Origin: Flavobacteriales bacterium | GTDB taxonomy: Bacteria; Bacteroidota; Bacteroidia; Flavobacteriales_F; PHOS-HE28 | Assembly (NCBI GenBank): GCA_019638115.1 | Contig: JAHBUK010000004.1 | Coordinates: 552,001 to 616,000 of the forward strand | DNA: 64,000 nucleotides | Direction: 5' to 3' | Shown here: positions 32,349 to 63,247 of the stretch, piece by piece | Numbering within the stretch: the first letter of the stretch is position 1 | How the letters are laid out: each line of letters opens with the position of its first letter | Translations under genes and position numbers: made by a program | Notes under the pieces: generated by a model | The model's input: only the letters and a program-made list of their open reading frames with translations | Told to the model about the DNA's origin: nothing | Database searches by the model: none

Positions 32349-32545
32349 ACGCCGTGAAGCATAGCGGTCATTGGGGCGTGCCCCTCGCAGAGCCTCGGGT
32401 CGCGCCTTCCGCTACAAGCCTGCCTGCAGGACAGGCAAGTCCTCGCTCGTTCCTCGCTGTGGGCTTTCCGCTGCGATCGCTCACGCGTGGAAGTGCTTTA
32501 CAATCATGTTTGGGCCTTTTACTCGGGAGTGTTTCAATTCCCTGA
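32345..32545 (+). repeat. HWGVP repeat element, copy A, with open frame
   Basis: The repeat proper covers about 32367-32487, from GTCATTGGGGCGTGCCCC to TCACGCG. It contains GGGGCGTGCCCC and TGCCTGCAGGACAGGCA palindromes. A 66-codon frame starts at 32345 (ATG overlapping the preceding stop), reads HWGVPL...GFPLRSLTR through the repeat and stops four bases before the ATG of the next gene. Copies B and C lie at 37237 and 38058. Confidence 0.7.
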
Positions 32546-33832: not shown

Positions 33833-34465
33833 ATGAAACGCCCCTCGGTAGAAAAGCTGGTGCTGGCGCGCATGGAAGAGCGTGGCCGGGGCAGCGTGTT
33901 CACCCCCAAGGACTTCTGTGATCTGGGTGGGCGCAGCGCGGTGGCCGTGGCCTTGCACCGGCTGGTGAAGAAGGAGGTGGTACGGAACATCGGGAACGGC
34001 TTGTACTGCATACCCACCCCGGACCCGTACTTGGGTGAGATCACCGCCTCCGTCGACGACATCGTGCAGGCCATCGCCAAGCGCGACGGGATCAAGTTGC
34101 GCCCAACCGGAGCGCGCGCAGCGAACTTGATAGGGATCACTACCCAGGTGGCTGCGCGTACCGCTTACCTCACCGATGGGCGTGCCCGAAAGATCCGGAT
34201 ACCACGTTCGCGACCGGATCAGATCGACCATGTGATCCCGTTGCGGCAAACGAGCGCGCGCTACATGAACGCACGCACGGAGATCGGCTATCTGGTGATA
34301 CAGGGTTGCCGCAACCAAGGCCGCAAGCATTTCGGCAAGAAGGAATACGCAGCGATCAGCCACCGGCTTCCAGCCGCTGCAAAGCGCGAATTGTTACAAG
34401 ACCTGGACACCGCACCGGCATGGATCGCGGACATCATGCGTCGCTTGGCGGCGGAAGCCCAATGA
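33833..34465 (+). CDS. AbiEi-like antitoxin (DUF6088)
   Basis: 210 residues. The N-terminal winged helix (VFTPKDFCDLGGRSAVAVALHRLVKKEVVRNIGNGLY) is the DNA-binding part of AbiEi/DUF6088 antitoxins, followed by the effector-like domain (SVDDIVQAIAKRDGIKLRPTGARAANLIG). It should repress its own promoter and neutralise the adjacent nucleotidyltransferase toxin, as in type IV AbiE systems. The stop overlaps the toxin ATG (ATGA). Located in the accessory block between fadN and fadA. Confidence 0.82.
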   Translation: MKRPSVEKLVLARMEERGRGSVFTPKDFCDLGGRSAVAVALHRLVKKEVVRNIGNGLYCIPTPDPYLGEITASVDDIVQAIAKRDGIKLRPTGARAANLIGITTQVAARTAYLTDGRARKIRIPRSRPDQIDHVIPLRQTSARYMNARTEIGYLVIQGCRNQGRKHFGKKEYAAISHRLPAAAKRELLQDLDTAPAWIADIMRRLAAEAQ

Positions 34466-35535
34466 GCATCCACGGCTTCCTACACGTTGGAGAAGATCGA
34501 CAGCGCAAGTTGCTCGGTGATGCGAACCGGAAACTCAAACTTTCCATCGGAAGCATCGAAAAGGACGTCTACGTCTGCCTCTTCCTGGAAAAGGTGATGA
34601 CGCTGCCGGGTATTGGGGAACACCTTACGTTCAAGGGCGGAACATCACTCTCCAAGGCGCACAAGATCACCGAGCGCTTCTCTGAGGATGTGGACCTCGT
34701 GATGGACCGCACTGCGCTCGGGCTTTCGGACGATGCCATTCCGGGACCGCAACACTCGTCAAGGCAACAGAAGGAGCGTGCCAAGAAGATCGCAAAAGCT
34801 TGTCGCACATGGACGGCGGATGTGCTCCTGCCTGCAATGCGAAAAGCACTTGAGCCCGAATTGCCCAACGGCACGTGGAGCTTGGACTTGAACGTCGATA
34901 CCGACAATCACGAGACCGTCATCTCCTTCCGGTATCCGCGATCGATCACAACAGGTGGCCAGTACATCCTTGAACATGTGAAAGTGGACCTGGTAGCGAA
35001 AGCCGATGCCTGGCCGGTCACCGTGATGCCCGTGCGCGCTTATGTGAATGAACTCTACCCGGAAGAGTTGGGTGATGGAGCATTCCCCGTGCGCACCTTG
35101 GAAGCCGAGCGCACCTTGATCGAGAAAGCGCTCTTGTTGCACGAGGTGCTCATCCAACGCCCCGACGGTCCGCGACCGCGACTGGCCCGGCACTACTTCG
35201 ACCTGTACTTCCTGCACCGCGCAGGCGTGACGGCGAAGGCCATAACACGCACCGATCTCTATGCCGCCGTGGTGCAACAGCGCAGCATCTACTACCGCTA
35301 TCCCGGAGTGGACTACGACGCGCTGCTCCTGAACGGTTTCACCATCATCCCGGAAGGTGCGGCACGCGATGCTTGGCAGCACGATTACGAGGGCATGCAA
35401 AGCGACATGTTCTATGGAGAGGTGCCGGCATTTGAAGACATCCTTACCGCACTGGAAAAACTTCAAGACGACTTCCGCACCCACCTGCGGAGCAACTCAA
35501 CATCAACACCGCCGGTAGCCCGGCACTTATCTTAA
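34462..35535 (+). CDS. abiEii: AbiEii-type nucleotidyltransferase toxin
   Basis: 357 residues from the ATG at 34462, overlapping the antitoxin stop. The nucleotidyltransferase core is FKGGTSLSKAHKITERFSEDVDLVM, containing the GG-S and DxD-like motifs, and a late ERTLIEKALLLHEVL with ARHYFDLYFL matches motifs III-IV of AbiEii. Such toxins transfer nucleotides to tRNA or other targets and give abortive phage infection or plasmid stabilisation. It stops 30 bp before fadA, so the module may also drive or read into fadA. Confidence 0.85.
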   Translation: MSIHGFLHVGEDRQRKLLGDANRKLKLSIGSIEKDVYVCLFLEKVMTLPGIGEHLTFKGGTSLSKAHKITERFSEDVDLVMDRTALGLSDDAIPGPQHSSRQQKERAKKIAKACRTWTADVLLPAMRKALEPELPNGTWSLDLNVDTDNHETVISFRYPRSITTGGQYILEHVKVDLVAKADAWPVTVMPVRAYVNELYPEELGDGAFPVRTLEAERTLIEKALLLHEVLIQRPDGPRPRLARHYFDLYFLHRAGVTAKAITRTDLYAAVVQQRSIYYRYPGVDYDALLLNGFTIIPEGAARDAWQHDYEGMQSDMFYGEVPAFEDILTALEKLQDDFRTHLRSNSTSTPPVARHLS

Positions 35536-35565: not shown

Positions 35566-36741
35566 ATGAACGCATACATCATCGCAGGTTACCGCAGCGC
35601 CGTTGGACGATCAGGCCGCGGCAAGTTCCGTTTCACCCGCCCCGACGACCTCGCGGCCAGTGTGATCAAACACCTTGTGGCCAGCGTGCCCAACCTGGAC
35701 AAGGAGCGCATCGACGATGTGATCGCCGGCAACGCCACGCCCGAAGCCGAGCAGGGCCTGAACATCGGCCGCATGATCAGCCTGATGGGCCTGGACACCG
35801 ACAAGGTGCCGGGCATGACGGTGAACCGCTACTGCAGCAGCGGCAGCGAGACCATCGCCATCGCCGCGGCCAAGATCCACAGCGGGCAGGCCGACTGCAT
35901 CATCGCGGGTGGCGTGGAGTGCATGAGCCCGATCCCCTTCGGTGGCTGGCGCATCGTGCCCAACGCCAAGGTGGGCAAGGCGAACCCCACGTACTATTGG
36001 GGCATGGGCCTCACCGCCGAGGCCGTGGCGCGCGACTTCAAGGTGAGTCGCGAGGACCAGGACGCCTTTGCGCTGGCCAGCCATGAGAAGGCACTGGCGG
36101 CGATCGCCGAAGGCCGCTTCAAGGACGACATCGTGCCGGTGGAAGTGGAGCGCGTGTACCTCGACGCGAAGGAGAAGCGCCAGGTGGAGAAGTACATCGT
36201 GGACACCGATGAGGGTCCACGCGCAAGCACGCTGGAAGCACTGGCGAAACTGAAGCCCGTGTTCGATGCCCGTGGCACGGTAACGGCCGGCAACGCCAGC
36301 CAGACCAGCGATGGCGCCGCCTTCATGCTGGTGGTGAGCGAGCGCATGCTGAAGGAACTCAACGTGAAGCCCATCGCGCGTCTCCTCTCCTACCACGTGG
36401 CCGGTGTGGAGCCGCGCATCATGGGCATCGGTCCGGTGGCGGCTGTGCCCGCAGCGGTGGAAAAAGCAGGCCTGAAGCTGGGCGACATCCAGCAGTTCGA
36501 GCTGAACGAGGCCTTCGCATCACAGTCGCTGGCAGTGGTGCGCGAGCTGGGCATCGACCCGAGCATCGTGAACGTGAACGGCGGCGCGATCGCGTTGGGG
36601 CATCCGCTGGGCTGCTCCGGCACCAAACTGACCGTGCAGCTGCTGAACGAGATGCGCAGGAGGAAACAGAAGTATGGGGTGGTGACGATGTGTGTGGGGA
36701 CGGGGCAGGGAGCTGCGAGTGTGTTCGAGTTGTTGAACTGA
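35566..36741 (+). CDS. fadA: Acetyl-CoA acyltransferase (thiolase)
   Basis: 391 residues, standard thiolase length. The nucleophile is Cys90 (VNRYCSSGSE), His346 lies in GGAIALGHPLGCSG, and the second active-site Cys376 is in TMCVGTGQGAASVFE. It cleaves 3-ketoacyl-CoA to acetyl-CoA and a shortened acyl-CoA, the last step of beta-oxidation. It is separated from fadN by the accessory block. The last 108 bp (36634-36741) are repeated in diverged form at 37140-37237 (partial) and 37951-38058. Confidence 0.95.
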   Translation: MNAYIIAGYRSAVGRSGRGKFRFTRPDDLAASVIKHLVASVPNLDKERIDDVIAGNATPEAEQGLNIGRMISLMGLDTDKVPGMTVNRYCSSGSETIAIAAAKIHSGQADCIIAGGVECMSPIPFGGWRIVPNAKVGKANPTYYWGMGLTAEAVARDFKVSREDQDAFALASHEKALAAIAEGRFKDDIVPVEVERVYLDAKEKRQVEKYIVDTDEGPRASTLEALAKLKPVFDARGTVTAGNASQTSDGAAFMLVVSERMLKELNVKPIARLLSYHVAGVEPRIMGIGPVAAVPAAVEKAGLKLGDIQQFELNEAFASQSLAVVRELGIDPSIVNVNGGAIALGHPLGCSGTKLTVQLLNEMRRRKQKYGVVTMCVGTGQGAASVFELLN

Positions 36742-36748
36742 ACGGCTG

Positions 36749-37135
36749 ATGAATCGCCTTGCCCTTCTCGGCTTGTTGGTTTTAGTCGTGGGCTGTGACC
36801 CGGTCATACCCATAGAGCTTGTGAATGAAACTGGCGATACACTCACCGTCAAAGCTTATAGGACGATTCACTTCAGCACCTATGATGTCCACACGATCGA
36901 ACTCAGTGGCGACTACCGCCACTCCTGGATTGCATTCAAGGTGGCACCTAGAAGCACTATTGGTTGTGGTAGTGCCATTGCTGGCATTGAAGATGAAATG
37001 CCATTCACGGACTTGGTGATCACCAAGGCGAATGGTGACTCCATCATTGCTCGAGGTGAAACGGATGTCCTAGGCCTTTTTGACCGCGGGGTCCTCGGTG
37101 GATTGGAAACGCCTTACAGAATCACGGTGCGATGA
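36749..37135 (+). CDS. Small accessory lipoprotein
   Basis: 128 residues starting 7 bp after the fadA stop. Signal peptide MNRLALLGLLVLVVGC ends in a lipobox Cys16. The mature domain begins PVIPIELVNETGDTLTVKAY, a small beta-sandwich-like pattern, with IGCGSAI in the middle. I do not recognise the family. Lower G/C than fadA. A partial copy of the fadA 3' end starts 5 bp after its stop, so this gene lies between the real fadA end and its first copy. Confidence 0.6.
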   Translation: MNRLALLGLLVLVVGCDPVIPIELVNETGDTLTVKAYRTIHFSTYDVHTIELSGDYRHSWIAFKVAPRSTIGCGSAIAGIEDEMPFTDLVITKANGDSIIARGETDVLGLFDRGVLGGLETPYRITVR

Positions 37136-37139
37136 CCAC

Positions 37140-37237
37140 GAAACAGAAGTACGGTGTTGACGGTCCCGCTGAGGCGGGACAGGTTGTGCGTGGGGACGGG
37201 GCAGGGAGCGGCGAGCGTGTTCGAGTTGTTGAATTGA
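37140..37237 (+). pseudogene. Extra fadA 3'-end copy 1, interrupted
   Basis: Starts at the codon matching fadA GAAACAGAAG (36663 on) and ends at a TGA. Inside it is a replacement of a few bases by an insert containing the hairpin GTCCCGCTGAGGCGGGAC (37163-37180). Outside the insert the differences from fadA are synonymous (for example TAT/TAC, GCT/GCG, AGT/AGC, AAC/AAT). It is far too short to encode a thiolase. The TGA overlaps the ATG of repeat copy B. Confidence 0.8.
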
Positions 37238-37358
37238 TGGCACAGAAACGTGATAGTCATTGGGGTGTGCCCCCTGTTCAAATGCAGCCGGGATCTGGCT
37301 TTCCGCTCTACTCCTGGCTAATACCTCGCTGCGGGGCGCATCTCCGATCCATCACGCG
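37237..37358 (+). repeat. HWGVP repeat element, copy B
   Basis: ATG overlaps the TGA of the fadA tail copy. It reads MAQKRDSHWGVPPVQMQ...GFPL...LRSITR in the same frame as the downstream secreted protein (ATG 37360), without a stop. The nucleotide repeat covers 37256-37358, from GTCATTGGGG to TCACGCG. Confidence 0.7.
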
Positions 37359-37359
37359 A

Positions 37360-37803
37360 ATGACTGCCTTACTTACCATCGCAACACTGGTAGCTACAAC
37401 TGCCATAGCACAATCAAAAGTGAAGTGGGAACAAGAAGCAGTGAAGTACCAATATGCCGATACCAGTGGAGGGGAAATCGTCATAGTGAAGGGGATCGAG
37501 TTAGGGACACAAATGCAGGTCCAGTTCGGTTGCTGTTTCAGTGATAGCGTAAACGTCCTCCTCAACGGCAAACTTCTGGAGAGAGCATACTTCAACACCG
37601 ACCCCTCCACAAGCCTTGCAAGAAGTATCACCGTTGATCTTGGGGAGGGTCATCAGGTGCTTCGTGTAGAACTCCCGGAGAAACGGGTTTGCGCTGAGAT
37701 CGTTCTGGACAAGAGCTATCGAGTGCTTCATGTCAATCGCATGGTTCATTGGAACAAGACATGGTGGGTCACGTTCCAGAATTTTCACAGCGTGTATGAA
37801 TGA
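37360..37803 (+). CDS. Secreted accessory protein of unknown function
   Basis: 147 residues with a signal peptide (MTALLTIATLVATTAIAQ). The mature protein has strands such as GGEIVIVKGIELGTQMQVQ and a Cys-Cys pair (FGCCFSD), with NVLLNGKLLERAYF in the middle. No family recognised. The frame continues upstream in phase through repeat copy B to an ATG at 37237, so a longer form with 41 extra residues is possible. The 37360 start directly precedes the signal peptide and is preferred. Confidence 0.55.
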   Translation: MTALLTIATLVATTAIAQSKVKWEQEAVKYQYADTSGGEIVIVKGIELGTQMQVQFGCCFSDSVNVLLNGKLLERAYFNTDPSTSLARSITVDLGEGHQVLRVELPEKRVCAEIVLDKSYRVLHVNRMVHWNKTWWVTFQNFHSVYE

Positions 37804-37950
37804 TCATGAAACCTGCCATTTCCATCTGTAAGAGAAGCACTTGCACTGAGTACGTTAAGCACATCTGTCTGTCCGTGTTTTCCAATGCGCGTTTCCGAAA
37901 AAGCCATCGCTCTGGGGCCTCCACTACAGTGTACGGGCGCGTAAATGAGC

Positions 37951-38058
37951 GTGCAGTTGTTCAACGACATTCGACGGCGGAAGAAGAAGTACGGGGTGGT
38001 AACGATCTGTGTGGGAACTGGGCAGGGAGCGGCGAGCGTGTTCGAGCTGCTAAACTGA
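37951..38058 (+). pseudogene. Extra fadA 3'-end copy 2, full-frame diverged
   Basis: 108 bp, the same length as fadA 36634-36741, with no indels. Comparing codon by codon, 18 of 36 codons differ: 13 synonymous and 5 conservative (L/F, E/D, M/I, Q/K, M/I). It ends in TGA that overlaps the next ATG (TGATG). The pattern shows divergence under selection as part of a working thiolase gene before it came to this place. Confidence 0.85.
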
Positions 38059-38564
38059 TGGCACAGAAACGTGAAAGTCATTGGGGCGTGCCCCTGGCTC
38101 AAATGCAGGCGGGGTCCGGCTTTCCGCTTCAAGTCCGCGCCCTGATCACAGGGCTTGCGGGCTTTTCGCTTCAATCCGTCACGCGAACTCTGCTGATCAC
38201 GTTATCTCTAGTCACGACACCTGCTGGGCACGCATGCAGTTGCATAGGCGCTGCTGGACTCGATGCCGTTGACGTGGTCTTCACCGAACGAGTGGTCCGG
38301 ATCGAGAAGACCGACACAAGCGTTGCTGTCACGTTCAAGGTCAAACACCTCTACAAGGGTGATCTGAGCGGAGAGAAGCGTGTCGTGGTTCATACGCGTC
38401 GTGGAGGTCAGGCTTGCGGCATCAGTTTCATTCGTCACACGAAGTACGCAGTCTATGCGTACGGTGACCTGGATCATGCGAGCACAGGTTTGTGCACGCG
38501 TACTCGCATCATGGCACCATTCAGGCTCTGGCCATATAAACCCAAGGAGAGCACAGGTTGGTGA
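38058..38564 (+). CDS. NTR/TIMP-like secreted protein starting in repeat copy C
   Basis: Up to 168 residues from the ATG at 38058 (MAQKRESHWGVPLAQMQ), which lies in repeat copy C; an internal ATG at 38103 is possible. There is no later in-frame ATG before the hydrophobic segment TLLITLSLVTTPAGHA. The mature part begins CSC and continues DVVFTERVVRIEKT, VTFKVKHLYKGDL, CGISFIRHTKYAVYAYG and TGLCTRTR, which is the netrin-like (NTR/TIMP) pattern of small secreted domains with Cys-rich N-termini. The target is unknown. The gene seems to depend on the repeat for its start codon. Confidence 0.6.
   Translation: MAQKRESHWGVPLAQMQAGSGFPLQVRALITGLAGFSLQSVTRTLLITLSLVTTPAGHACSCIGAAGLDAVDVVFTERVVRIEKTDTSVAVTFKVKHLYKGDLSGEKRVVVHTRRGGQACGISFIRHTKYAVYAYGDLDHASTGLCTRTRIMAPFRLWPYKPKESTGW
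38077..38185 (+). repeat. HWGVP repeat element, copy C
   Basis: From GTCATTGGGGCGTGCCCC to TCACGCG, very like copy B at both ends and sharing with it the preceding TGATGGCACAGAAACGTGA. It reads HWGVPLAQMQAGSGFPLQ...LQSVTR and runs in frame into the NTR-like protein. Confidence 0.7.
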
Positions 38565-38575
38565 ACCATGTACGC

Positions 38576-39208
38576 ATGAACCCCGCACCCTCCAACAAAT
38601 CCTTCCTTGCCGCCTTGTTCGCGGGAAGCTTGCTTCTCGGTGCTTGCCAGATGCCCGAAACGAACACGGCAATAGAATCCGGTTCCATTGGCATGAACGG
38701 AGTGAACAGTAGGTCAGGTCTTCACATCGACACCTCGGCCGCCAGCATTGAGCGCATGAAGATCATGAGCCAGTTCCTGAACAAATGGGGGGGCTTGGGG
38801 CCACAATATGACACGCTGCTCGACTTGAACTATGACGGCATCGATGACTACGCGATCGGCTGGTATGGCCTTGCAGGCAACGGGCTCAAGCATAATTGGG
38901 ATGTCCACATCTGGCATCCAGAACTGGACACCTACGTCGAAGACACGAGGCTGACAGGGCTACCCAACGCATCATTCTATCGCGAGGACTCGCTCATTAC
39001 CTCCTTCTACATCGCGCACGGCGGTGGCCACGGCGAACAATGGGAGTGGCTCAACGGCGGATGGCAGCAAACAACGACCTTCTACGTTGAGAACGAGGGA
39101 GAGAACAGCGAGTGGTTATTGACCGACCTGACAACAGGATCGAAGCATTCCGTCCGCCATACCTACCAAGGCATACCACCTTCGAGTATTCTCAGGTCCC
39201 ATTATTAG
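38576..39208 (+). CDS. Accessory lipoprotein with Asp-rich loop
   Basis: 210 residues from the ATG at 38576. Signal peptide ends LLLGAC (lipobox). The mature protein contains LLDLNYDGIDDYAIGWYG, a calcium-binding-like Asp-rich turn of the FG-GAP or XAC2610 kind, then strand-rich segments with Trp (EQWEWLNGGW). I do not recognise the exact family. It is the last gene of the accessory block before a 725-bp non-coding stretch. Confidence 0.6.
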   Translation: MNPAPSNKSFLAALFAGSLLLGACQMPETNTAIESGSIGMNGVNSRSGLHIDTSAASIERMKIMSQFLNKWGGLGPQYDTLLDLNYDGIDDYAIGWYGLAGNGLKHNWDVHIWHPELDTYVEDTRLTGLPNASFYREDSLITSFYIAHGGGHGEQWEWLNGGWQQTTTFYVENEGENSEWLLTDLTTGSKHSVRHTYQGIPPSSILRSHY

Positions 39209-39326
39209 CGATCACCAATTGACGAATGCCCCCCGCATCCTCCGTCGTATGATGTCGATAGCCCGATGACGAAGTAGCCGTCACCAGCTGAAACACATGA
39301 GCGCCCTGCTACCCCCCTCCAGCTTC

Positions 39327-39510
39327 CAACCGGTGACAAGTCGTCACCAGTTGAAACCAGTCATGGTTGGCGATCCAGTCGGTGACAAATCGTCACCGAC
39401 TGAAATGGAGTTCGCCCAACTGGTTACGGATCGTAACCGGTTGAAGCCCCCACAGCACAACTGGTAACAGATCGTTACCAGTTGAGTTGGTTACAACTTG
39501 TAACCAACTC
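39327..39510. repeat. Five-member array of 27-bp dyads, 11-5-11
   Basis: Five dyads at 39327-39353, 39376-39402, 39417-39443, 39458-39484 and 39484-39510, each with 11-bp arms and a 5-bp centre. Consensus: CAACYGGTNAC, N5, GTNACCRGTTG. N is G, G, T, A, T and the other arm changes to match. Three dyads are perfect and two have one mismatch. Starts are spaced 49, 41, 41 and 26 bp. Covariation means the pairing is what is kept. No gene is seen in 39209-39326 or 39511-39580. Confidence 0.85.
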
Positions 39511-39933: not shown

Positions 39934-41745
39934 ATGGCAACAGAGAGCATCACCAAAGCACTACAAGGCGGCGAATTCCTGATCCGCGAGAGCGACCCGC
40001 AGGACATCTTCATCCCCGAGGAATTCAACGAGGAGCAACGCATGATCGCGCAGAGCTCCTTGGAGTTCCTGGAGCAGCATGTGTGGCCCAACCTGGACCG
40101 GATCGACAGCATGGAAGAAGGCCTGATGCCGAGCCTGCTGGATACGGCCGGCGAGCTGGGATTGCTGGGCATCAGCGTGCCCGAGGAGTACGGCGGCTTC
40201 GGCAAGGATTTCCTGACGGGCATGCTGGTGACCGAGGTGACCGGCGCGGGGCACAGCTTCAGCGTGGCCATTGCGGCGCACACGGGCATCGGCACCCTGC
40301 CCACGCTCTACTACGGCACGGAGGAGCAGAAGAAGAAATATGTGCCCAAGCTGGCCACCGGCGAATGGAAGGCCTGCTACTGCCTTACGGAACCCAGCAG
40401 CGGAAGCGATGCCAACAGCGGCAAGACGCGCGCGGTGTTGAGCGACGATGGCAAGCACTACATCCTGAACGGGCAGAAGATGTGGATCACCAACGGCGGT
40501 TTCGCTGACATCTTCACGGTGTTCGCCAAGATCACCGACCCGAAGACCGGCGAGACCGACAAGAACCTCACGGCCTTCATCGTGGAGAAGGACTTCGGGG
40601 GCATCACCTTGAATGCGGAGGAGAAGAAGATGGGCATCAAAGGCAGCAGCACGCGCCAGGTGTTCTTCGAGAACTGCAAGGTGCCGGTGGAGAACCTGCT
40701 GGGGGGACGCGAGAACGGTTTCAAGATCGCGGTGAACATCCTGAACGTGGGCCGCATCAAGCTGGCCGGTGCGGCGTTGGGCGGTGCGAAGAAGAGCGTG
40801 GACATCGCTGTGCAGTATGCCAACGAGCGTATCCAGTTCGGCAAGCCGATCGCAAGCTTCGGCGCCATCCAGCAGAAGCTGGCCGACATGGCCACCTACT
40901 GCTACGCCACTGAGAGCGCCACCTACCGCTGCAGCAGCGATATGGAACGCGCGATCGAGGGACTGAAGGCCGACGGCGCAGACCACGCCACCGCACTGTT
41001 GAAGGGTGTGGAGCAGTACGCTGCTGAAGCCGCCATCCTGAAGGTGGTGGGCAGCGAGTGCCTGGACTTCGTGGTGGACGAAGCAGTGCAGATACACGGC
41101 GGCATGGGCTACAGCGCCGAGAGCAAGATCGAGCGCGCTTACCGCGATAGCCGCATCAACCGGATCTTCGAAGGCACCAACGAGATCAACCGCCTGCTGA
41201 CGGTGGACATGCTGCTGAAGCGCGCCATGAAAGGCCAACTGGACCTGATGGGTCCCGCGAAAGCAGTCGCTGGTGAGCTGATGGGCATCCCCGACTTCAG
41301 CGAGCCGGATGACAGCCTGCTGGCCGCCGAAACGGGCTACGTGAAGAACTTCAAGAAGGCGGTACTGATGACCGCAGGTGGTGCCGCTCAGAAACTCGGA
41401 CTCGCCCTGGGCGATGAGCAGGAGATCGTAATGCATATCGCCGACATGGTGATCGAGACCTACATGGCCGAGAGCACCCTGCTGCGCACGCAGAAGCTGG
41501 TGAGCATGAAGGGCGAAGCCGTATGCGCCGAGCAGATCGCCATGACGCAGTTGTACATCCACGACGCTGCCGACCGCATCCACAAGAGCTGCAAGGAAGC
41601 CGTGAACAGCTTCGCCGATGGCGACGAACGCATGGCGATGCTGATGGGTGCCAAGCGTTTCACCAAAACGCAACCGCTGAACACGACCAAGGTGCGCCGC
41701 GTGGTGGCGAAGAAGATGATCGAGGCGGGGAAGTTGCCGTACTGA
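39934..41745 (+). CDS. fadE: Acyl-CoA dehydrogenase
   Basis: 603 residues, the long class with an extra C-terminal domain as in VLCAD-like and Bacillus FadE-like enzymes. FAD-site segments are CYCLTEPSSGSDANSGKT and KMWITNGGFADIFTVFAK; QFGKPIASFGAIQQKLADMA and QIHGGMGYSAESKIERAYRD follow, and the catalytic Glu is in RIFEGTNEINR (about residue 413). It makes the first double bond in beta-oxidation. It has its own operator-controlled promoter, so it can be expressed despite the accessory block separating it from fadA. Confidence 0.95.
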   Translation: MATESITKALQGGEFLIRESDPQDIFIPEEFNEEQRMIAQSSLEFLEQHVWPNLDRIDSMEEGLMPSLLDTAGELGLLGISVPEEYGGFGKDFLTGMLVTEVTGAGHSFSVAIAAHTGIGTLPTLYYGTEEQKKKYVPKLATGEWKACYCLTEPSSGSDANSGKTRAVLSDDGKHYILNGQKMWITNGGFADIFTVFAKITDPKTGETDKNLTAFIVEKDFGGITLNAEEKKMGIKGSSTRQVFFENCKVPVENLLGGRENGFKIAVNILNVGRIKLAGAALGGAKKSVDIAVQYANERIQFGKPIASFGAIQQKLADMATYCYATESATYRCSSDMERAIEGLKADGADHATALLKGVEQYAAEAAILKVVGSECLDFVVDEAVQIHGGMGYSAESKIERAYRDSRINRIFEGTNEINRLLTVDMLLKRAMKGQLDLMGPAKAVAGELMGIPDFSEPDDSLLAAETGYVKNFKKAVLMTAGGAAQKLGLALGDEQEIVMHIADMVIETYMAESTLLRTQKLVSMKGEAVCAEQIAMTQLYIHDAADRIHKSCKEAVNSFADGDERMAMLMGAKRFTKTQPLNTTKVRRVVAKKMIEAGKLPY

Positions 41746-56392: not shown

Positions 56393-56449
56393 CTACCTCA
56401 ACCACTCCACCTCCACCCTCCTTTCGTCGGGGTTGCGGCCCATGCTGCG
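56393..56449 (+). repeat. 57-bp copy of the ompA-like gene 3' end
   Basis: Identical over 57 bp to 61925-61981, which is the last 19 codons (with stop) of the minus-strand ompA-like gene. Both copies have the same orientation, so they flank 56450-61924, with the subtilase and propeller genes, as direct repeats. Confidence 0.9.
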
Positions 56450-61924: not shown

Positions 61925-63247
61925 CTACCTCAACCACTCCACCTCCACCCTCCTTTCGTCGGGGTTGCGGCCCATGCTGCGGCTGTCGCCGTAGTGGTTC
62001 ACCAGCAGGCGTTCGGCGGCGATGCCGCGTTGCATGAGGTAGTTGCGCACGGCGGTGGCGCGCTGCTCGCTGAGGCGCAGGTTCACGGTGGGGTCGCCGC
62101 TGCGATCGGTGTAGCCGGTAATGAGCACACGCTCCTGTGGCGACCGGGCCAGTTGCTCAAAGACCTCGTTCAGCAGCACGCGGTACTCGGCATCGAGGCT
62201 CACGGAGTTGCGGGCGAAACGCACGGTGATGTTGCGGCCCACCAGGGTGCTGAGGTTGGCGGACGGGTTGTCGGTGGGCATACTCGCCTGTGAGCGCACC
62301 TCGCGCACTTCCAGCTCCAGGCCGGTGATGCGGTCGTCCATATCGTCCAGGCGGTCGCGCAGGTTCCACAGTTCCTTGCGCTGGTCCAACTGGTCGATCC
62401 GTTCGTTGATGCGGTCCAGTTCCTCCTTCAACCAGCGGTCGCGTTTGCGCACCTTCAGGTCGCTGGCGGCAGCGATGGGCTTGCCCTGTTCCGCCATGGA
62501 CTTCAACAGGCGTTCGCCCAGCACGGGGTCCACGCCGCCGTTGCCACTATCGGCAAGTTGCAGGTCCAGCGCACAGAGGAAGTTGTCCTCGTCGAACACG
62601 GTGCCGCAGGTGCTGTTGATCTGCACCTGCGTGCCGATGGGGCCGATCTTCGGACCGATCACCACCACGTTGGCCAGCGGCAGCAGGTCGGCGCGCACCT
62701 GGCGTTCCAGTTCATCACGTTGGATGCGCACGTAACGGTAGAGTGCGAGGTACTTGTCCTGTCCGGCACCGTCGATACCGGTTCGGGTGGCGCCCCATTG
62801 GATCTTCACCAGGCGCTCCAATTGCTCACGCGTGGCGGGCGACAGACCCACGAAGGCATCGGGCACGCCCAGGTCGTCGGCGGCGGCCAGCACCAAGGCG
62901 TTCATTTCCTGGACCAGGCTGCTCACCGGCAGGTCGCTGGCCACTCCTTCCTTGGTGAAGCGCAGATGGCCGTCGAGGTAGGCGATGAGCCCGGCCTCCA
63001 CCACGCGGTCCAGCATCAGGCGCAAGCCATTGTCGGGTTCCCCGGCCTGCTGCACCTGGAACACAGCAAGACCTTGTGGTACACCGCGCCAGATGGCCTG
63101 GAAGACCTGCACCGGCGCTTCGCCGTCCGTGCGCATGCCGTGCAGCACGATGTTGTTGCCTTCCCACGCGGCGCCGAGTTCCAAGCGCGGCTGCGCCTGG
63201 GCGGCATGGAGCAGCGCGGCAGCGGCGGCCACCAGCAACGAGCGCAT
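61925..63247 (-). CDS. OmpA-family protein with coiled coil
   Basis: 440 residues from the ATG at 63247 with a signal peptide (MRSLLVAAAAALLHAAQAQ). The middle has a periplasmic helical part with a coiled coil (LKEELDRINERIDQLDQRKELWNLRDRLDDMDDRI). The C-terminal OmpA domain carries ITVRFARNSVSLDAEYRVLL, ITGYTDRSGDPTVNLRLSEQRATAVRNYL and ERRVEVEWLR. It should tie the outer membrane to peptidoglycan. Its last 57 bp are duplicated at 56393-56449. Confidence 0.85.
   Translation of the reverse strand: MRSLLVAAAAALLHAAQAQPRLELGAAWEGNNIVLHGMRTDGEAPVQVFQAIWRGVPQGLAVFQVQQAGEPDNGLRLMLDRVVEAGLIAYLDGHLRFTKEGVASDLPVSSLVQEMNALVLAAADDLGVPDAFVGLSPATREQLERLVKIQWGATRTGIDGAGQDKYLALYRYVRIQRDELERQVRADLLPLANVVVIGPKIGPIGTQVQINSTCGTVFDEDNFLCALDLQLADSGNGGVDPVLGERLLKSMAEQGKPIAAASDLKVRKRDRWLKEELDRINERIDQLDQRKELWNLRDRLDDMDDRITGLELEVREVRSQASMPTDNPSANLSTLVGRNITVRFARNSVSLDAEYRVLLNEVFEQLARSPQERVLITGYTDRSGDPTVNLRLSEQRATAVRNYLMQRGIAAERLLVNHYGDSRSMGRNPDERRVEVEWLR

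Follow-up and report, generated by a model that had tools for sequence, protein, structure and literature searches.

In a Flavobacteriales bacterium (GenBank assembly GCA_019638115.1), two displaced copies of the end of the thiolase gene fadA lie downstream of the resident gene, each followed by a small gene with a start that looks, by eye, like a signal peptide. Our analysis indicates that these displaced tails are probably scars of nested capture, small 'cargo' genes having entered at the fadA 3' end by recombination anchored in the gene end. The window, i.e. the whole stretch analysed, comprises 64,000 nucleotides (nt) of contig JAHBUK010000004.1 (positions 552,001 to 616,000, forward strand). 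Genomes are numbered with G and sequence stretches with L; G000 is the window's own genome, and the genus set holds 45 genomes, 44 of them besides G000. The copied part of fadA is its end, 36586-36741, and a search of G000 at E<=0.001 returned these three fadA ends only. Cargo A begins 7 nt past the fadA stop codon and ends 4 nt ahead of the first displaced tail (Table 1).

Table 1. Features of the fadA locus in window coordinates, with other copies of the dispersed repeat and stretches carrying a tyrosine recombinase
Feature	Position	Strand	Basis or remark
fadA, acetyl-CoA acyltransferase (thiolase), resident, intact	35566..36741	+	Pfam thiolase N and C domains
Cargo A, putative lipoprotein, 128 amino acids (aa)	36749..37135	+	Open reading frame (ORF)
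Displaced fadA tail 1 (copy 1), hairpin insert 37164-37179	37140..37237	+	Last 53 nt 92% identical to fadA
Structured dispersed repeat 3' of tail 1, kin of the Flavo-1-like repeat at 38084	37263..~37361	+	Alignment with 31 other copies
Cargo B, 147 aa, signal-peptide-like N-terminus	37360..37803	+	ORF
Displaced fadA tail 2 (copy 2), 156 nt	37903..38058	+	Sequence match to fadA end
Flavo-1-like structured repeat 3' of tail 2	38084..38185	+	Match to the Flavo-1 model is on the opposite strand
Cargo C, small secreted-type protein, putative start overlaps the repeat	38157..38564	+	ORF
Cargo D, putative lipoprotein, 210 aa, XAC2610-related domain	38576..39208	+	NF047539, E 2.1e-9, 37.8 bits, cut-off 35
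Acyl-CoA dehydrogenase (ACAD)	39934..41745	+	Direct fadA neighbour in G025, without insert there
Dispersed ~100 nt repeat, copies in the window	32374-32487; 37263-~37361; 38084-38185		
Dispersed ~100 nt repeat, copies elsewhere	L144; L142; L143; L150		
Tyrosine recombinase	G000:C2:2672-3487 (L212); G010 (L213, L214); G025 (L215); G019 (L216); G008 (L217)		

The two tails have diverged from fadA largely in the manner of coding sequence. Copy 2 matches the gene over 156 nt without indels (36586-36741 against 37903-38058, 76% identity), which exceeds the 108 nt reported in an earlier note on this DNA. The codon counts of that note for the last 36 codons (18 differing, 13 synonymously and 5 nonsynonymously) were exact on recount, and the changes fall on codon positions 1, 2 and 3 in 7, 0 and 13 cases. 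When 20 random changes were simulated in 4000 draws, 0.1% reached the observed third-position count and none had as few nonsynonymous codons, in line with its claim that the bias is unlike that of a decaying duplicate. Copy 1, said to differ only synonymously outside its hairpin, does so: 4 of its 17 final codons are changed, all synonymously, and the six codons ahead of the hairpin are likewise changed only synonymously. Over all 52 codons of copy 2, 31 differ, 19 synonymously and 12 nonsynonymously including a stop, and the 16 upstream codons (48 nt) are more degraded than the final 36. Because this upstream part is degraded and carries a stop, copy 2 is now a dead sequence. Chance is unlikely to have produced the copies, since 28 fadA tails, searched as a panel against 1.2 Mb of other stretches, gave no match of at least 36 bits; chance and random decay of a duplicate are both disfavoured by the codon pattern and the controls.

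Two other species settle the origin of their displaced tails. In G062, a displaced tail followed by a cargo gene (Y) and the dispersed repeat is colinear over 586 nt (82.6% identity) with G009, where the same cargo and the repeat stand behind the functional fadA tail. The second case is G008, in which a displaced tail, the repeat and a 174-aa gene are colinear over 826 nt (88.9%) with the functional fadA tail of G067 and the same downstream elements. Given this colinearity with functional fadA-plus-cargo loci, the displaced tails of G062 and G008 are former working fadA ends still joined to the DNA that followed them. Furthermore, G060 and G062 have in common the junction between another cargo gene, X, and a displaced tail (591 nt, 91.2%). 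X stands directly behind fadA in G060; in G062 it is truncated, and the adjacent gene has an rve integrase core of the kind found in IS3-type transposases.

The slot 3' of fadA is very variable throughout the genus, holding mostly different small genes that often begin no more than ~20 nt past the fadA stop. An ACAD motif was located in 21 of 28 genus loci. It lies 39 nt from fadA in G025, where the ACAD gene follows directly, and at 964-4736 nt in the 20 other loci (3225 nt here); in G023 and G004 no ACAD was found within 8.5 kb of fadA. Outside the genus, 16 of 63 loci yielded the motif, and five of these have it 36-50 nt from fadA. Direct adjacency of fadA and ACAD is a plausible ancestral state, since it is seen in G025 and in these five loci. 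A search with each locus's own tail found displaced tails in six of the 28 genus loci (G000, G004, G008, G030, G059 and G060) and in none of the 63 outside the genus; the panel of tails added G062 and G014, neither of which belongs to the 28-locus set. The displaced tails begin at differing positions of fadA.

As to the kinship of the window's own copies, copy 2 is nearest to the fadA of G010 (133 of 156 positions identical, against 119 of 156 to the resident gene), and a tree joins the two with support of 99/95. The last 53 nt of copy 1 agree with the fadA of G016 at 51 positions and with the resident gene at 49. The resident tail also appears partly uncoupled from its own gene: G025 is the nearest relative by fadA body (90.1%), yet its tail is only 76% identical. 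For 21 complete fadA genes of the genus, the Spearman coefficient between third-position distances of the final 36 codons and those of the remainder is 0.22, compared with 0.58-0.80, once 0.46, for windows starting at codons 168-336. A foreign origin of the window's copies is likely, and we infer that both arose in the same way as the tails of G062 and G008.

An old tandem duplication of the resident fadA end, with copies that diverged where they lie while the peptide was under selection, would agree with the high identity of copy 1 to the resident gene and with approximately unbiased (AU) tests, which do not reject kinship of the copies with it. However, copy 2 has an in-frame stop upstream and sits in the frame of another ORF, so that no selection on a fadA peptide is expected there, and its changes are nevertheless mostly synonymous. 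Copy 2 is moreover closer to the fadA of G010, and in two other species a tail with its cargo is colinear with another species' fadA locus. We consider such a duplication very improbable.

The fadA tail has a peculiar composition. In its last 36 codons, third-position G and C stand at 0.69 and 0.14, against 0.37 and 0.50 in the gene body, which makes the tail G-rich at third positions among 222 G000 genes (z 2.6); clpB is similarly G-rich (z 2.7) and likewise has a displaced tail. Third-position G reaches at least 0.58 in the last ~36 codons of 22 of 29 genus fadA tails. Lower values occur in G025, which has no cargo, and in six tails with cargo or displaced tails (G002, G023, G004, G033, G030 and G067). 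One idea suggested by this composition is that the G-rich tail could play a Chi-like role.

In the nested-capture reading, the fadA 3' end would be a recurrent capture site. DNA from a relative, comprising its own fadA end and the small gene behind it, would recombine with the resident chromosome, the homology in fadA serving as anchor. The resident would gain a new fadA end and a new cargo, and the old end with any older cargo would be shifted downstream and decay. Repeated rounds would stack such units, the newest adjoining fadA. Since a displaced tail would be a leftover homology arm, units of cargo and tail might enter any fadA end anew through normal homologous recombination, with no need for an integrase of their own. 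Judging from the sequences, homologous recombination anchored in the gene end and independent of a dedicated recombinase is the likely process. RecA-type recombination may be its agent, and natural transformation would be a guess at the route; a ComEC gene is present, as it is in 10 of 14 control genomes. The shared X-tail junction, and the hairpin found at one position in the displaced tails of G000, G062, G030 and G014, would fit a second use of such tails as homology arms. A tail may have arrived together with the cargo behind it, or may be the old resident end, moved aside by a newer segment of fadA tail plus cargo; the nesting fits the latter at least as well.

Homology-facilitated illegitimate recombination might also have acted alone. 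Each cargo would then have arrived once, on linear DNA that paired with fadA at one end and was joined randomly at the other, and the tails would be inert scars that never served as arms. The differing starts of the displaced tails agree with this, and the available text of PMC2884548 describes the process for transformable bacteria. Three observations do not: the X-tail junction common to G060 and G062, which looks as if cargo and tail travel or descend together; the tails of four species, which share the hairpin site yet have different neighbours; and some junctions lying just 4-11 nt from a cargo ORF. We regard this explanation as rather unlikely.

A site-specific element that targets and restores the fadA 3' end, as islands do at tRNA genes, would also leave a rebuilt gene with old ends displaced downstream. 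Nevertheless, a Pfam scan of 24 cargo proteins at fadA sites, which are part of the locus ORFs, found no integrase or other recombinase. Tails that begin at different fadA positions speak against a fixed attachment site, and 5' gene-end fragments occur too (at the paaZ-like and PaaD genes described below). There is in our view only a very slight chance that such an element is responsible. Four further ORFs of the slot are likewise without recombinase (one without family, the others Bro-N, 2'-5' RNA ligase and PIN). An integron was discarded as a candidate: the integrase model TIGR02249 scored over its cut-off in none of the 45 genus genomes, several of which are incomplete assemblies.

A tyrosine recombinase that matches the ends of the IntI profile and not its middle is found in many genus genomes, among the matches listed; the three copies scanned have Phage_integrase and Phage_int_SAM_4 domains. 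In several of the stretches looked at, small differing genes stand behind it. Five of the six stretches, drawn from five genomes, have no match to the dispersed repeat near the recombinase; one of the G010 stretches has partial matches ~4 kb away.

Fragments of gene ends beside small genes also occur at other genes. We inspected stretches chosen for carrying the dispersed repeat and an even sample of 20 stretches of 20 kb from each of G000 and G010. The repeat-bearing stretches contain 3' ends of a carboxyl transferase gene (two fragments, L150) and of lpxD (L145), and 5' ends of a paaZ-type aldehyde-dehydrogenase/MaoC gene (two fragments, L144) and of an aldehyde dehydrogenase gene (L143), with small genes between. 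The even sample yielded three cases in G000, namely 3' ends of a Cons_hypoth698 membrane gene (L157) and of clpB (L158) and the 5' end of PaaD (L159); the single G010 case is the 3' end of a 422-aa gene that belongs to no Pfam family (L188). In L159, a HEPN gene and a nucleotidyltransferase gene lie between PaaD and its displaced head. The kind of divergence seen at fadA recurs in the first carboxylase fragment, where 17 of the 18 changed codons (out of 52) are synonymous, and in one paaZ-type head, where 12 of the 17 changed codons (out of 37) are; the other head differs in 6 codons, 3 synonymously. The L188 fragment has no clear codon bias. A gapless comparison puts both the aldehyde dehydrogenase head and the other carboxylase fragment out of frame. 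L146 holds a second partial copy of the start of a mobile-type gene.

In 400 kb of the control genome G054, the gene-end repeats inspected were of other kinds (L198 and L206 being judged from ORF places only). An automatic tail search at 40 bits recovered 5 of 209 genes in G000 (0.09 expected), among them the window's fadA and two in the repeat-rich L153, and 3 of 186 in G010 (0.04 expected). The count alone proves no excess, because G054 also gave 3 of 181, these resembling paralogues or repeated domains by their place.

Several results weigh against nested capture of foreign ends. The AU test rejects neither a clade of fadA and copy 2 (p 0.23, at a cost of 13.8 log units) nor one of fadA and both copies (p 0.24), nor one of fadA and copy 1 (p 0.51), for which the constrained tree even scores slightly higher. 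The 5' end of fadA is as decoupled as its tail (0.22-0.29), windows around codons 36-60 are low too, and outside the genus the same measure is uninformative (0.28 at the end, 0.09-0.53 elsewhere). Several of the other gene-end fragments have little codon bias, with synonymous and nonsynonymous changes numbering 3 and 5 in lpxD, 3 and 4 in PaaD, and 4 and 4 in both the Cons_hypoth698 gene and clpB. Some cargo has flanks as tight as 4-11 nt, a precision that illegitimate joining does not call for. The hairpin site common to four species has two possible sources, re-use of arms and insertion more than once. The second cargo of G003 is related to the first cargo of G017 (551 nt, 73%), and no displaced tail was found between it and the first; nesting thus need not leave a visible scar. 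Finally, the donor arrangement of cargo A to C was not found in the 44 other genus genomes, because cargo A and B have no homologue there at E<=0.001 and cargo C only weak ones, in 4 of the 44.

The proposals of the earlier note on origin therefore stand in part. It named a best match to another lineage's fadA, followed there by the same cargo gene, as support for capture: copy 2 does join G010, and the AU tests leave room for kinship with the resident gene. Its suggestion that the tails diverged inside functional fadA genes of relatives and belong with the cargo behind them is borne out by the pairs G062/G009 and G008/G067, not by a donor for the window's own copies.

Both displaced tails of the window are followed by the dispersed repeat, which extends over ~120 nt there (121 nt shared, 88% identity). 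It occurs genus-wide, and the content of its hairpin stem differs from copy to copy. Its structure covaries in 32 copies; columns 34-119, for example, pair as GC in 19, CG in 12 and UA in 1. In the RNAalifold structure, which was derived from the same alignment, 98.3% of cells are paired, against 85.6% in shuffles. The Rfam model Flavo-1 (RF01705) matches the opposite strand of the repeat in six of seven sources (E 3.1e-5 to 0.044), always below the gathering threshold; the best score is 39.9 of the 42 bits needed. One of the three window copies is matched, at 38109-38189 on the minus strand (37.4 bits, E 3e-5), and none in the window reaches gathering. The copy behind tail 1 has no RF01705 match at E<=1, and the L144 copies are not matched by Flavo-1. 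A new structured family was considered and set aside, as Rfam at relaxed thresholds points to Flavo-1. By eye, the repeat has the same polarity at fadA, at the paaZ-type gene (L144) and in L142, its GGGCGTG end facing the core gene and its CACGCG end the cargo.

A second structural feature is the hairpin of type TCCCGC..GCGGGA, which lies in dead tails at one position in four species (window 37164-37179, G030, G014 and G062) and is absent from 29 functional fadA tails. A similar hairpin is found in the displaced carboxylase tail (L150, 6361-6376).

For 18 of the 24 cargo proteins from fadA sites no family scored over cut-off in Pfam (ten of the 24, including D, were also compared with NCBIfam). 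Three match immunity-type families: cargo X is SUKH-4 (E 4.2e-16), a G065 gene is DMP19-like (E 3.7e-30) and cargo D is XAC2610-related. XAC2610 confers immunity to a lysozyme-like effector, and immunity proteins include some that are DMP19-like; part of the cargo may consist of immunity genes. Other families comprise one PD-(D/E)XK nuclease, one DUF7674 and one protein with a SHOCT domain. Cargo A has no Pfam family over cut-off; its AlphaFold2 model, with a predicted local distance difference test score (pLDDT) of 51, is not usable, and that of cargo C is likewise too poor to search. Sequence searches of the PDB with cargo C, D and X returned nothing at E<=0.1. Cargo D (window 38558-38660) and a G003 cargo (L139:1275-2033, minus strand) begin with a near-identical signal sequence (MNPAP..LAALFAGSL.LGAC).

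Other elements surround the locus. An AbiE-type toxin-antitoxin pair, composed of a DUF6088 gene and an AbiEii nucleotidyltransferase toxin gene, lies just upstream of fadA (window 33833-35535). Five spaced copies of a palindromic 32-nt repeat of the GGTGACAAGTCGTCACC type precede the ACAD gene (window 39262-39487), and similar repeats are present behind fadA in G029 and G013. A 57-nt direct repeat, 100% identical, occurs at window 56393-56449 and 61925-61981, 5.5 kb apart.

In the reading of nested capture, a displaced core-gene end that diverged as coding sequence would be a readable scar, marking the point of cargo entry, the cargo that preceded it and, roughly, the lineage of origin. Capture events could then be counted and put in order in ordinary genomes even where nothing marks a mobile element. 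Re-use of displaced ends as arms, if it occurs, would make every housekeeping gene end a possible cassette site and help to explain how small accessory genes, possibly including orphan immunity genes, spread where neither integrase nor transposon is found. A wider and distinctly tentative proposal is that of an integrase-free cassette system, in which housekeeping gene ends would act as attachment sites and host homologous recombination as the integrase. Its units, each a small gene (in some cases one for interbacterial immunity) with a dead gene end, would circulate among species of the genus and pile up downstream of fadA and of other core genes; at each copy of the gene end they could be gained, rearranged or lost.

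Several known systems resemble parts of this arrangement. Minimal mobile elements of Neisseria (Saunders and Snyder 2002, Snyder 2007, as presented in the available text of PMC3082526) are different whole-gene cassettes between conserved neighbours, credited to homologous recombination. Differing genes likewise stand between fadA and ACAD in the genus, in a comparison of species and not of strains. At fadA, however, cargo can be added ahead of earlier cargo and leave pieces of the flanking gene's end, and the available text of PMC3082526 mentions no such scars. Orphan cdiA-CT/cdiI and rhs-CT/rhsI modules, in the portions of PMC4927057 and PMC3967940 available, consist of displaced 3' ends of the upstream gene with small genes behind them, and their same-direction arrays are read as a record of past captures. 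Nested 3' ends of the anchor gene with small genes downstream are found at fadA too. There the anchor is a thiolase that encodes no polymorphic toxin and the tail has no apparent function, whereas in the contact-dependent inhibition (CDI) and Rhs systems the displaced end encodes a toxin and the anchor is a weapon.

The orphan immunity arrays of recombinase-associated acquired interbacterial defence (rAID) in Bacteroidales (Ross 2019, as outlined in the available text of PMC12247911) also consist of co-oriented short genes with conserved intergenic motifs, and SUKH-type immunity genes occur both in them and in the fadA cargo. In contrast, the fadA locus has no recombinase among the scanned cargo, housekeeping-gene anchors and Flavo-1-like repeats, the rAID motifs themselves being outside the comparison. 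Outside the part that Flavo-1 RNA matches, the repeat has in addition an outer stem and a hairpin that varies. Homology-facilitated illegitimate recombination, in the part of PMC2884548 available, shares the single homologous anchor with the other end joined elsewhere, but the fadA locus displays repeated nesting at the same gene end across a genus. Literature searches, which subscription papers mostly lay beyond, found no description of this pattern at housekeeping genes. What is new here is that the ends of housekeeping genes serve as anchors and leave nested scars, diverged as coding sequence, across a whole genus.

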